This document shows positions 27,442 through 34,045 of a stretch of 34,045 nucleotides of DNA, piece after piece. Numbering within the stretch: position 1 is the stretch's first letter; each line of letters opens with the position of its first letter. The DNA is from Syntrophomonadaceae bacterium (lineage in GTDB: Bacteria > Bacillota > Dethiobacteria > DTU022), in the NCBI GenBank assembly GCA_007131435.1, contig SLQM01000188.1:1-34045 (forward strand). The letters are read 5' to 3'. Position numbers and translations under genes: made by a program. The notes beneath the pieces were generated by a model, which did not search any database, had not been told where the DNA came from, and was given only the letters and a program-made list of their open reading frames with translations.

Positions 27442-30114
27442 TCAGGCTTTTTCGATGCTGATGGCGCAAACCTTTGTCTCCGGCGTTTTGGCTACCGGAT
27501 CGAGGGCCGAGCTGGTCAGTAAGTTGGTCGGACACTCGGCAAAGTGGAAACTTAAAGCAGCTACTCCGGGTTGGCTACGCCTGGTAATCCTGGCCTTTAC
27601 TTCCAGTTCACCGCGTCGTGATTTTACCTTAACCAGGTCGCCGTCTGCAATGCCCATCCTCTCGGCATCAGCCGGGTTGATCTTGATATGTTCGCCACCG
27701 CTCAGCTCATCCAGCCCCTCTGAATAACGGGTCATGGTACTGTGGAACTGGTAGAGGCTGCGCTCGGTGGTCAGGATCAAGGGAAAGTCAAAATCACAGC
27801 AATCTTCAGAAGGCCTGTAGGAAAGTGGCATCAGCTTGCCCTTGCCGGACGGGGTATTGAACTTTTCCGTATGAAGGACCGGGGTGCCCGGGTGATCTTC
27901 TGCCGGGCAGGGCCACTGGATTCCACCATGCTCAAGTCGCTCGTAAGTAATTCCGGCATAGCTGGGGGTAACCGCAGAAATCTCCCTGAAAATATCGGCT
28001 GCGCTGTTGTAGGCAAAACCTTCAGCTCCCATTTCATTGGCGATGGCGCTGATAATCCACCAGTCTGGTTTCGCTTCACCGACCGGTTCAATAACCTTGC
28101 GTACCCGCTGCACGCGGCGCTCGGTATTGACAAAAGTGCCGTTTTTCTCGGCAAAAGAAGCTGCCGGAAGAACAACATCTGCCTTCTGGGCGGTTTCGTT
28201 CAGGAATATATCCTGGACAACGAAGAATTCCAGCTTTTCCATCGCCTCGATGGAATGCGAGGCATTGGCCTCAGTCAGCACCGGGTTTTCGCCAACCAGG
28301 TAAAGGGCTTTGACATCGTTCCTGTAGGCGGCATCGAAAATCTCAGTGTGGGTGAGGCCCGGTTTGGGGTTCAGCTCAATTTTCCAGCTGCCCTCAAATT
28401 TTTGCCTTGCCCCTTCATCTTCTACCTTCTGGTAACCGGTGTAAACGTTGGGCAGCGAACCCATGTCGCAGGCGCCCTGCACGTTGTTCTGTCCGCGCAG
28501 GGGATTAACCCCGCCAGAAATGTTGCCCAGGTTACCGGTAATCAGGGCCAGGTTGCTTAAGGCCAGCACGTTGTCCGTGCCGTGGGAATGCTGGGTAATA
28601 CCCATGCAGTAGAGCAGCGATGCCGGGCTGTTCTGGGCATACATTCTTGCCGCTTCAACTATTTTTTCTTCCGGTACGCCGGTTATATCGCTGACAAAAT
28701 CAAGGCTAAACTCCGAGAGCGATTCTTTAAAGGCCTCAAAGTTTTCAGTGCGCTCCTCTATATATTGCTGGTTGTGCAGCCCTTCCTCGACAATCACGCG
28801 GGCCATGCCCATCAGCAGGGCAACGTCGCTGCCCGGCCTGATCTGGAGGAAAAGATCGGCAAAGCGGACCAGCGGAACTTCCTGCGGATTCGCAACAATC
28901 AGCTTTGCCCCGCGGCGCACCGCTTTTTTAACCTGGTAGCCAATAATCGGGTGCGCCTCGGTAGTGCTTGTGCCGATAGCCATGATGCAGGCTGAATCGG
29001 ATACTTCACCAATCGTGTTGGTCATTGCCCCGCTGCCCAGTGTAGTGGCCAGACCGGCCACGGTGGGAGCGTGTCAGAGACGGGCGCAGTGATCGATATT
29101 GTTGGTGCCCATCACCGCGCGGGTAAATTTCTGCAGCACATAGTTATCTTCCACGGTGCACTTGGCTGAAGCAATAGTTGCGAACTGGTCACCTTTATAC
29201 TGGCCAAGTTTTTCGGAAATCAGTGAAATGGCCTCTTCCCAGCTGGCTTCAACAAGCTCACCGTCCCTGCGGATCAGCGGGGTGGTAAGGCGCTCGGGGG
29301 AATTAACAAAACTGAGGCCATAGCGCCCCTTAACGCAGAGGCTGCCGCCGCTGACCGGGCTGTCCTCCACCGCCGTGGAGCTGACAAGTTTGCCGCCTCT
29401 GGCCCCGACCAGGATGTTGCAGCCGCAGCCGCAGAAGGGGCAGACCGTTTCAACTTCGTAGGTCGGTTCAATCGCCTTTTGAGGAACAAGTGCCCCAACA
29501 GGGCAGCGCGACACACACTCGCCGCAGGTGACACAGGTGGAATCGATAATCGGCTTGTCGCCAAGCACGCTGATCCGCGTTTCAATACCGCGGAAGGCGA
29601 AATCGATACATTCATCGCCCTGGATCTCTTCACAGGTGCGCACGCAAATGCCGCATAAAACACATTTGTTCATATCACGCTGGTAATAGGGGTTTGAATC
29701 ATCAATCGGAAAATCGAGCGCCGGTGCGCGCATGGCGCTAATCCGCTCTTCATCGATCCCGACGTAGCGGGTCAACTCCTGCAGTTTACAGTAGCTATTC
29801 TTGGCGCAGTTCTGGCAGTCGTAATCATGGTGAAGAATGAGCAGTTCCATGTTTACCTTGCGGGTCATATCCAGCTCTTCGCTGGAAGTGGTAACCACCA
29901 TTCCTTCTTCTACCGGGGTCATACAGGATACTGTCGGCCGGCGCCCTTCAATTTCAACCAGGCAAACCCTGCAGATGCCGACCGAGGTCAGGTCTTGATG
30001 ATCGCAGAGGTGGGGAATATAGATGCCGTTCTCCAGGGCTGCCCTCAATATAGAGGTGCCCTTTTCCGCCTTTATCTCCACACCATCTATGGTTAAGGTA
30101 ATTAACTCTGACAT
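27442..30114 (-). CDS. Selenocysteine-containing formate dehydrogenase, catalytic subunit with NuoG-like N-terminal Fe-S domains (890 aa)
   Basis: ORFs 29074-30114 and 27442-29061 are one frame interrupted by UGA 29074-29076: [31 protein letters not shown], the FDH active-site context; CPFCGCGCN and 2Fe-2S/4Fe-4S motifs upstream. Confidence 0.95.
29045..29076 (-). promoter_or_regulatory. Bacterial SECIS element of the formate dehydrogenase
   Basis: mRNA UGA-CACGCUCCCACC-GUGGCC(GGUCU)GGCCAC; 6-bp stem, GGUCU loop. Confidence 0.88.
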
Positions 30115-31976
30115 TTACAACCCTCCTCGCATACTTCAACTTCTTCTTCAGTCTTTAAACCCTCCGAGACAACCACTACTGCGCTCACTTTCTTCGGGCA
30201 GGCATCGAAACAGGCTGAGCACTGGGTGCAAAGCTCCTGGTCGATCTCGTGCGGTTGTTTCTTTTCCCCTGTAATTGCATCGACCGGGCAGGCCTTGATG
30301 CAGCGCTGGCAGCCTATACACTTTTCAGCATCAATGTAGTACTGCAGGAGGGGCTTACAGACCAGGGCAGGGCAGCGTTTCTCGTTAACGTGTGCTTCGT
30401 ACTCGTCGCGGAAGTAGCGCAGCGTGGTGAGAACCGGGTTGGGCGCAGTCTGGCCCAGGCCACACATTGAGCCTTTCTTCACCGCCGTGGCCAACTCTTC
30501 GAGCAAAGCAACGTCTTCTGGTTTACCGCGCCCCTCGGTTATATCCTCTAAAATATCGTACATCTGGTTTGTGCCGATCCGGCAGGGGATACACTGCCCG
30601 CAGGATTCTTTCTTGGTGAAACTTAAGAAATAGCGAGCCAGGTCGACCATGCAGGTATCTTCGTCAACCACAACCAGTCCACCGGAACCCATCATCGCCC
30701 CGGCAGCGGTCAGGGAATCGAAGTCAATCGGCAGATCGAGGTGTTCTTCTGGTATACAGCCACCCGAAGGTCCGCCGATCTGGGCTGCCTTGAATTTCTT
30801 GCCAAACCTGATTCCGCCGCCGATATCGAAAACGACCTCGCGGATGGTGATACCCATGGGCACTTCCACCAGGCCGGTATTGTTAACCTTGCCGGTCAGG
30901 GCAAAAACCTTGGTCCCCTTACTGCCCTCGGTGCCGACGGAAGCAAACTGCTCGGCGCCGCGGCGCAAAATTAGCGGCACGTTGGCTAATGTTTCCACGT
31001 TGTTGATCACAGTTGGCTTGTTCCAGAGTCCCTCGACTGCAGGAAATGGCGGGCGGTGACGGGGCACGCCTCTTCTACCCTCGATTGAGGCAAGAAGTGC
31101 AGTTTCTTCACCGCAAACGAAAGCACCTGCTCCTTCCTTGATTTTCACCTTGAAGTTAAAACCAAATCCTAAAATATTTTCACCCAGCATGCCGTATTCT
31201 TCAGCCTGCCTGATAGCGGTGCGCAGGCGCTGGATAGCCAGTGGGTACTCGGAACGGACATAGATATAGCCTTCATCAGCATTTATTGCCTGGCCGGTAA
31301 TCATCATCCCTTCCAAAACAGCGTGGGGATCGCCTTCGAGCAGGGAACGGTCCATGAAGGCCCCGGGATCGCCTTCGTCAGCGTTACAGACAACATACTT
31401 TTTAGCTCCCTCACTGCTCAGGCAAAACTGCCACTTCATCCCGGTAGGGAAACCTGCTCCACCGCGGCCACGTAGGCCGGAGCTTTTAATTTCTTCAACC
31501 ACCTCAGACGGCTCCATCTTCAGGGCATTTTTAAGACCCAGGTAACCGCCTCGTATTATATATTCGTCTATATTTTCAGGGTCTATAACCCCGCAGTTGC
31601 GCAGCGCCAGGCGCTGCTGCTTGCTATAAAACATGATCTTATCATGGTTAATAACAATTTCCTCCGATACAGGGTCCTTGTAGAGCAGGCGCTCCACCAT
31701 GTTGCCCTTTATCAGGTATTCTTCAACTAATTCAGGTACATCTTCAGCCTGGACCCCGCAGTAGAATACATCTTCAGGGAAAACGATAAAAAGCGGGCCC
31801 TTTTCACAGAAGCCGTGACAACCGGACATGATGATCCGCACTTTATCCTGCAGGTTGTGTTCCTGCAAAGATTTTATAAGCGCTTCCTGGACCTTGTCAG
31901 CGCCCGAGGAGATACAGCCCGTTCCGGCACAGATCAGAATATGTCTTTCATACACTTTGGTCTTCTCTCCTTTCAA
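30102..31976 (-). CDS. NuoF-like NADH-binding subunit with N-terminal thioredoxin-like 2Fe-2S and C-terminal 2x4Fe-4S domains
   Basis: GRGGAGFPTGMKWQFC, GAGAFVCGEETALLASIEGRRG, ESCGQCIPCRIGT, CIGCQRCIKACPVDAITG, CTQCSACFDACP. Confidence 0.95.
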   Translation of the reverse strand: MKGEKTKVYERHILICAGTGCISSGADKVQEALIKSLQEHNLQDKVRIIMSGCHGFCEKGPLFIVFPEDVFYCGVQAEDVPELVEEYLIKGNMVERLLYKDPVSEEIVINHDKIMFYSKQQRLALRNCGVIDPENIDEYIIRGGYLGLKNALKMEPSEVVEEIKSSGLRGRGGAGFPTGMKWQFCLSSEGAKKYVVCNADEGDPGAFMDRSLLEGDPHAVLEGMMITGQAINADEGYIYVRSEYPLAIQRLRTAIRQAEEYGMLGENILGFGFNFKVKIKEGAGAFVCGEETALLASIEGRRGVPRHRPPFPAVEGLWNKPTVINNVETLANVPLILRRGAEQFASVGTEGSKGTKVFALTGKVNNTGLVEVPMGITIREVVFDIGGGIRFGKKFKAAQIGGPSGGCIPEEHLDLPIDFDSLTAAGAMMGSGGLVVVDEDTCMVDLARYFLSFTKKESCGQCIPCRIGTNQMYDILEDITEGRGKPEDVALLEELATAVKKGSMCGLGQTAPNPVLTTLRYFRDEYEAHVNEKRCPALVCKPLLQYYIDAEKCIGCQRCIKACPVDAITGEKKQPHEIDQELCTQCSACFDACPKKVSAVVVVSEGLKTEEEVEVCEEGCKCQS

Positions 31977-31994
31977 TAAACATGGGAATTATAT

Positions 31995-32174
31995 TTAGTG
32001 TTCCCGGAAAGCGGAACTGTGTGAATATTTTTCAACTATCTCCTGGCGGGCTTTTTTGCAGGGCTCGCTTTCATGGCAGAGCGGCCCTTCCAGGCAGCAC
32101 TCCACAAAGACATCACACCGCTTTTCTTCACTGTTGAAGCATTTCTCACAGCAGTGATCGATGAATTTTTCCAC
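31995..32174 (-). CDS. Small Cys-rich protein (59 aa, absent from the ORF track)
   Basis: GTG start directly after the NuoE-like stop: MEKFIDHCCEKCFNSEEKRCDVFVECCLEGPLCHESEPCKKARQEIVEKYSHSSAFREH; 8 Cys; fills the nuoE-nuoF gap. Confidence 0.85.
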   Translation of the reverse strand: MEKFIDHCCEKCFNSEEKRCDVFVECCLEGPLCHESEPCKKARQEIVEKYSHSSAFREH

Positions 32175-32651
32175 TTATGCTTCCCCCCCTTCCGCATCTT
32201 CGCCGAAGGTTGCCAGAATTTTTTTCATTTTATCGGGATCTAGCTTGCCGAAGGTGGTTTTGTCAATGGTCATCACGGGAGCCAGGCCGCAGGCCCCGAT
32301 ACAGGCCACTTCTTCATAGGTAAACTTCATGTCTTCGGTTGTGCCGTTTACCTCTACATCCAGCTCAGTCTTGATCCTGTCGGCAATCTTGCTGGCCCCG
32401 CGCACGTGGCAGGCCGTTCCGCAGCAAAGGCGGATTATATGATTACCCCGGGGTTGGAGGTGAAAGCGGGCATAAAAGGTTGCCACGCCGAATACTTTAC
32501 TTTCAGGCACCCGCACAAAACGAGCCACTTCGCGCATTGCTTCCTCGGGTAGGTAGCCTATCTCTTCCTGCACATCCTGCAGGACGGGGATCAATTCATT
32601 TTTTTCGCCCTTGTATGAAGCAAATACTGTATTTAATTGTTCTTCCATCAT
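32175..32651 (-). CDS. NuoE-like thioredoxin-fold 2Fe-2S subunit
   Basis: LIPVLQDVQEEIGYLPEEAM, FGVATFYARFHLQPRG, LCCGTACHVRGA, VACIGACGLAPVM. Confidence 0.95.
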   Translation of the reverse strand: MMEEQLNTVFASYKGEKNELIPVLQDVQEEIGYLPEEAMREVARFVRVPESKVFGVATFYARFHLQPRGNHIIRLCCGTACHVRGASKIADRIKTELDVEVNGTTEDMKFTYEEVACIGACGLAPVMTIDKTTFGKLDPDKMKKILATFGEDAEGGEA

Positions 32652-32992: not shown

Positions 32993-33499
32993 ATGTTATC
33001 TAAAAAGTTATTAACCAAACTGAATGAACAGATTACCCATGAATTTTTTTCGGCTCACTATTACCTGGCTATGGCCGCCTATTTTAAGAAGGAAGACCTT
33101 GATGGTTTTGCCAACTTCTTCGAGGTACAGGCCGAAGAAGAACGCTTTCATGCCATGAAATTTTTTAACTTTATTTATGACCAGGGTGAAGAAGCAGTAA
33201 TAACCGGCTTTAAAGATCCCAAGCGCGATTTCGAATCAGCCGAAGAAATTTTCGGCCTGGCCCTGGAGCATGAAAAGCTGGTCAGCAGCCTGATCAATGA
33301 GCTGATGAGTATTGCCCAGGAAGAACAGCACTACCCCAGCATCAGCTTTTTGCAGTGGTTCATTGATGAACAGGTGGAAGAAGAAGCAGGCATGAGCAAG
33401 CTTTTAAGCACAGTTAAACGGGTAGGAGAGAAGGGCCACGGCATCTTAATGCTTGACAGGGAACTGGCAGCCCGGACTTTTACCCCCGAAAGTGAATAA
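32993..33499 (+). CDS. Ferritin
   Basis: MLSKKLLTKLNEQITHEFFSAHYYLAMAAYF, EEERFHAMKFFNFIYDQG, FLQWFIDEQVEEEA; GGAGGA Shine-Dalgarno. Confidence 0.95.
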   Translation: MLSKKLLTKLNEQITHEFFSAHYYLAMAAYFKKEDLDGFANFFEVQAEEERFHAMKFFNFIYDQGEEAVITGFKDPKRDFESAEEIFGLALEHEKLVSSLINELMSIAQEEQHYPSISFLQWFIDEQVEEEAGMSKLLSTVKRVGEKGHGILMLDRELAARTFTPESE

Positions 33500-33612: not shown

Positions 33613-34045
33613 TTACTCAACCAGCAAAATAGCGTAACGATTCATTTCTTCATCGTAGCTGCGCAATACTTTAATCGGGTAACCAACGCTGCGCACGGTA
33701 CTGAAAAGATCAACAGCCAGAGATTCCGGGCCGGGACGGGCATCATCCTTATTTATGCAGGTAGTCCTTTCTCCCGTACAGGTAGAACAAAGGCGGCACT
33801 CATCCATAAAGAGCATAAAGGCTTTGTGGTAACCGGACAGGAAAACCTCCCTCTCAAGCTTTACCAGTTCCTTGCTCAGCTCCCTGCTCCAAAGAACCCG
33901 GTCTTCAGGACGTTCTACAGTTTTCTCGAAGCGGAAGATAACCGCGTCAGTGTATTCGGAGAAAAAAGCCCGGCACTCTTCAACAGAAGGGACCTGCGGA
34001 GGACAGGTTCCTTTTTTACCGAAACTACTGCATCCAAAGGTGCAT
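33613..34045 (-). CDS. DUF2284-like metal-binding protein, partial (N-terminus outside window)
   Basis: CTFGCSSFGKKGTCPPQVPSVEECRAFF...DECRLCSTCTGERTTCINKDDARPGPESLAVDLF; open to the window edge. Confidence 0.85.
   Translation of the reverse strand, partial: CTFGCSSFGKKGTCPPQVPSVEECRAFFSEYTDAVIFRFEKTVERPEDRVLWSRELSKELVKLEREVFLSGYHKAFMLFMDECRLCSTCTGERTTCINKDDARPGPESLAVDLFSTVRSVGYPIKVLRSYDEEMNRYAILLVE

Follow-up and report, generated by a model that had tools for sequence, protein, structure and literature searches.

A stand-alone CCxxC NuoF-prefix protein, putatively a small metal-binding subunit, encoded between nuoE and nuoF in a formate dehydrogenase operon of a Syntrophomonadaceae bacterium

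A small gene inside the nuoE-nuoF-fdhA operon of a Syntrophomonadaceae bacterium codes for a 59-aa protein that, judged by its match to a curated protein family, is the stand-alone form of the "CCxxC motif-containing NuoF prefix domain" (NCBIfam NF040902). The window, that is the whole stretch of DNA analysed, comprises 34,045 nucleotides. The gene is located on the minus strand at positions 31995 to 32174, starts with GTG, ends with TAA, and its product, MEKFIDHCCEKCFNSEEKRCDVFVECCLEGPLCHESEPCKKARQEIVEKYSHSSAFREH, has eight cysteines in its primary sequence. An earlier note on this DNA had listed it as a missed GTG-start open reading frame (ORF) for a 59-aa, 8-Cys protein that is flush with the NuoE stop and just below the length cutoff of the ORF track. 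The ORF was found as described, the cysteine spacing given there matches the translation, and 59 amino acids are indeed below the listing cutoff of 60. The NuoE-like ORF ends at 32175 and its stop codon directly adjoins the GTG of the small ORF; both are in the same reading frame, and a Shine-Dalgarno-like sequence (GGAAGGGGGGG) is present just 5′ of the GTG, within the 3′ end of nuoE. A gap of 197 nt to NuoF, as noted before, fits roughly with the longest NuoF ORF, which begins with TTG at 31976, but it amounts to 219 nt if NuoF starts with the GTG at 31955, which appears the more likely start and lies shortly 3′ of AAAGGAGAG.

The neighbouring genes, all on the minus strand, resemble those of electron-bifurcating enzymes. 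Upstream is the NuoE-like (HydC/BfuC) [2Fe-2S] thioredoxin-like subunit (32175 to 32651; PF01257, E = 3.4e-51; NF005722 above cutoff), and downstream the NuoF-like (HydB/BfuB) FMN/NADH subunit (30102 to 31955), recognised by PF01512, PF10589, Fer4 and a weak 2Fe-2S_thioredx match. This NuoF has a thioredoxin-like N-terminal domain and a C-terminal domain for 2x[4Fe-4S]; its best PDB match is the NiFe-HydB chain 7t2r_B (879 bits), with an alignment from chain residue 3. The third subunit (27442 to 30114) combines NuoG-like N-terminal clusters with the formate dehydrogenase alpha subunit (BfuA/FdhA), as seen from domain matches and the read-through HCARLUHAPTVAGL. A single TGA at 29074-29076 (...NNIDHCARL-TGA-HAPTVAGL) interrupts what is otherwise one frame from the NuoG-like ORF through FdhA, and it stands at the usual selenocysteine site of formate dehydrogenase. 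This subunit is thus likely an 890-aa selenoprotein with TGA read as selenocysteine; the draft genome gave a single match for tRNA-Sec that was only marginally above the cutoff and was not confirmed by ARAGORN. The operon is flanked by a gene for a DUF2284 predicted metal-binding protein (33613-34044, minus strand), which runs off the end of the window, and by an ORF on the plus strand (32993-33499) that looks ferritin-like by eye only. In the BfuABC/HydABC family of electron-bifurcating enzymes, BfuB corresponds to NuoF/HydB and BfuC to NuoE/HydC, and Type 1 Fdh-Bfu is one of its types (PMC9304861). The operon described here is similar to Type 1 Fdh-Bfu in having NuoE, NuoF and a fused NuoG-FdhA subunit, and in a NuoF with a thioredoxin-like domain at its N-terminal end and one for 2x[4Fe-4S] at its C-terminal end, but it has the 59-aa gene in addition. 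No mention of such a domain was found in the searched passages of the Bfu family paper (PMC9304861), nor was a description of the CCxxC prefix domain found in the open-access literature.

The 59-aa protein scored 52.6 bits against NF040902, above the curated cutoff of 45, with residues 1-49 aligned. It shares with the family the CCxxC start, the Cys/His spacing and the constant adjacency to NuoF, but it is encoded by a separate gene directly upstream of nuoF rather than preceding NuoF within one polypeptide. The model is of the type 'domain' and a fusion is not required to score; we therefore file the gene as a split variant. Alignment with 33 diverse homologues, gathered without using the motif, revealed ten invariant residues (C8, C9, C12, C20, C26, G30, P31, C33, H34 and C39). 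They make up the core CC-x2-C-x7-C-x5-C-x3-GP-x-CH-x4-C (32058 to 32153, minus strand), which occurs once in the window, with none expected in shuffled sequences. A site of eight cysteines, as proposed earlier, is therefore only partly borne out: seven cysteines are invariant, but C27 is Cys, Arg or another residue among the 33 homologues, and the invariant histidine is the eighth potential ligand. The ligand set is likely seven Cys and one His (C8, C9, C12, C20, C26, C33, H34 and C39) rather than eight Cys. Compared to NF040902, C27 is a feature of the lineage; family members often have P19 and H14, whereas the window protein has R19 and N14. Searches of Pfam (no match at E <= 1), PHROGs (nothing meaningful) and PDB sequences (no relative and no chain carrying the domain) yielded nothing for the 59-aa protein, and no Fe-S family was matched among the 33 homologues.

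The ORF is short, falls under the usual length cutoffs and lacks a Pfam match, and one might regard it as a chance ORF or as the functionless remnant of a decayed gene fusion. The match to a curated family, the broad conservation and the invariant ligands speak against this. A homologue is present in 55 of 100 relatives, usually encoded by a short ORF of comparable length, with best matches reaching E = 2e-35. Pairwise comparison of ten close homologues gave dN values of 0.007-0.22 with synonymous sites near saturation, and omega (dN/dS) was about 0.01-0.09, far under 1, wherever dS could be computed. Over 20 sequences, on average 86% of the synonymous but 19% of the non-synonymous sites differed. 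The 59-aa ORF is thus a genuine gene, highly conserved and under strongly purifying selection, and conservation in related operons and selection, the two points on which the earlier note had suggested to check it, both came out in its favour. A chance ORF is ruled out by the conservation data, and we consider the probability that the gene is without function as next to nil. In 12 split loci, including the window, the start codon of the small ORF follows the NuoE stop without any gap; since the frame is shared and only a stop stands between, read-through from NuoE was also considered. Across these loci the start is ATG, GTG or TTG, the stop is TAA or TAG, and a purine-rich ribosome-binding sequence is kept. 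The variable stop, together with the Shine-Dalgarno-like sequence before the start, argues for independent initiation.

Most relatives carry the domain in a different form. NF040902 was found above cutoff in 28 of 300 Bacillota genomes, in most cases within frames some 650 aa long, in which the domain is fused ahead of NuoF. Scanning GTDB species genomes with a DNA motif of the ligand core gave at least 117 loci; invariance within these holds by construction and is not counted as evidence. Among the matches listed, 94 are fused and at most 22 are split (the scripted count was 23, but the L177 locus is cut by the end of its stretch). NuoE is upstream in 109/110 and NuoF downstream in 101/101 of the listed loci that have enough flank. 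The same holds for 60 homologues found without the motif, with NuoF directly downstream in all 60 and NuoE upstream in 57. In three related Bacillota (L050, L051, L054), in which the prefix is joined to NuoF within a long frame, no NuoE was detected upstream. That the gene belongs with the NuoE/NuoF module of the operon, as the earlier note had it, is thus substantiated, NuoF being next in every testable homologue. It did not turn out to be an unnamed family specific to this formate dehydrogenase: NF040902 was already named, and the downstream partners among the motif loci listed are FdhA-like in 29 cases and H-cluster [FeFe] hydrogenases, almost all of them Ignavibacteria-type, in 14; the remaining loci have other partners or too little flank. 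According to host names in the tree, the domain is spread over about 15 bacterial phyla, including Bacillota, Acidobacteriota, Actinomycetota, Armatimonadota, Fermentibacterota, Ignavibacteriota, Myxococcota and Planctomycetota, and three archaeal ones (Thermoproteota, Bathyarchaeota, Nitrososphaerota), the host genomes being mostly MAGs of which some may be mis-binned.

On a tree of the NuoF core with 126 rows, the split state is one change (SH-aLRT 84). The split clade unites both copies of this genome with relatives that bear the labels Syntrophomonadaceae, Dethiobacter or Bacillota, and around it fused and prefix-less NuoFs are interleaved. The simplest reading, with moderate support from the tree, would be one fission followed by duplication. 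The second stand-alone copy (L185, G000:C85:10065-10226) is 48% identical, also between nuoE and nuoF, and near a contig end. Of the five full-length NuoF-like genes in the genome, two have the domain and three lack it. A further frame of 1068 aa (L182, G000:C23:3544-5346) appears, by eye, to join an aldehyde:ferredoxin oxidoreductase-like start, NuoE and NuoF; it is without the CCxxC domain.

AlphaFold2 predicted the 59-aa protein alone with a pLDDT of 89 and a pTM of 0.69, with helices at residues 23-29 and 37-50, and the same two helices were seen in the model of a 650-aa fused homologue (pLDDT 91.4, pTM 0.90). The fused model matched chains of the HydB type from T. kivui, A. woodii, C. saccharolyticus and S. 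ovata; in a Foldseek search the isolated domain model had no match in the PDB at E <= 10, and none of the solved HydB/BfuB chains carries the domain according to the PDB sequence search. The models thus predict, with confidence, a small fold that is without match among solved structures.

What could be the function of this protein? We propose that it is a separate small metal-binding subunit of the NuoE/NuoF/FdhA complex, which would be an electron-bifurcating formate dehydrogenase of the HydABC/Bfu type, and that it is the split-off version of a domain that is covalent at the N terminus of NuoF in most relatives. Cys and His ligands are common to zinc and Fe-S sites, and adjacent ligand pairs such as CC and CH rarely bind one metal. 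Since the eight ligands within 32 residues include both pairs, they would form two four-ligand sites. Zinc appears more likely than Fe-S, given that no Fe-S family was matched, one of the ligands is an invariant histidine and the domain is absent from enzymes with the same core reaction. The two putative sites would organise some 50 residues as a two-helix knuckle. This knuckle would sit next to NuoE on the N-terminal thioredoxin-like domain of NuoF and act as a structural clamp that holds the mobile NuoE-NuoF interface together. In the NiFe-HydABCSL complex, the N-terminal domain of HydB stabilises the C-terminal domain of HydC and is released upon FMN/NADH binding (PMC8880783); the covalent place of the prefix before the thioredoxin-like domain of NuoF would put it at just this domain. 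The role of the prefix is not tied to the adjacent [2Fe-2S] cluster, and the two sites are not coupled, since the prefix ligands are intact in 69/69 fused proteins (partly by selection of the set), whereas in 49 of them the neighbouring thioredoxin-like [2Fe-2S] motif lacks its C-x4-C half. Membership of the complex, the type and number of metals, the docking site and the clamp function are what we infer from these data. We hold it about an even chance that the protein is a structural subunit with two four-ligand zinc sites that caps the NuoF thioredoxin-like N-terminal domain beside NuoE. The "extra subunit" with a metal site suggested in the earlier note is plausible and gains support from the domain being a covalent part of NuoF in most lineages.

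A serious rival is that the domain bears an additional redox-active Fe-S cluster, perhaps plus one zinc, and serves the NuoEF core as a point where electrons enter, leave or are stored, with ferredoxin as one possible partner. Seven invariant cysteines, the constant position beside an electron-transfer module with many clusters and hosts that, judged by their names, are largely anaerobes would go well with such a function. However, neither a Pfam Fe-S family nor a PDB chain was matched, the invariant histidine and the adjacent CC and CH pairs suit zinc at least equally, and a domain that is absent from the solved bifurcating enzymes is no required relay. The proposed clamp has a point against it too: three of the five full-length NuoF paralogues of this genome and all solved HydB structures are without the domain, which is thus dispensable for the core reaction. 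We regard the redox cluster as possible, and favour the clamp. The "cluster-loading factor" put forward earlier, that is, an assembly factor for the NuoE/NuoF/FDH complex that is not a stable subunit, would suit a small, separate, Cys-rich protein within the operon. But the same domain is covalent in the mature NuoF of most relatives, which points to a permanent part; fusion would be unusual for a loading factor that acts transiently, and the split form arose once within the family. This makes a loading factor improbable.

A comparable metal site has been described. HydB of T. maritima has a Zn site with 3 Cys and 1 His (PMC9499530), and its equivalent in the A. mobile enzyme was assigned as [2Fe-2S] cluster B2 (PMC8880783). 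The similarity is that of a Cys/His metal site on a NuoF-type subunit near mobile domains. However, that site is within HydB itself, whereas the prefix forms a distinct domain apart from it, and NuoF of the window has candidate residues of its own for such a site (the YEAH His, C528 and C533).

The family as such is already named in NCBIfam (NF040902). What is new is its stand-alone occurrence, a refined set of ligands, its range of partners and phyla and its absence from all solved structures. The domain is strictly conserved in many anaerobes, including archaea, along with formate dehydrogenases and hydrogenases, yet it is present in no solved structure of the HydABC/Bfu type. It is tempting, though at present rather doubtful, to speculate that this very widespread, uncharacterised extra domain of the electron-bifurcating NuoEF core binds one or two metal centres unseen in these structures and adds a point of control or electron transfer, and that it became a separate subunit in one lineage. 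The free 59-aa form, but not the fused one, allows separate expression, measurement of metals and addition to or omission from the complex. Since ORF cutoffs of 60 aa drop the gene, complexes rebuilt from such annotation would be without a likely subunit.
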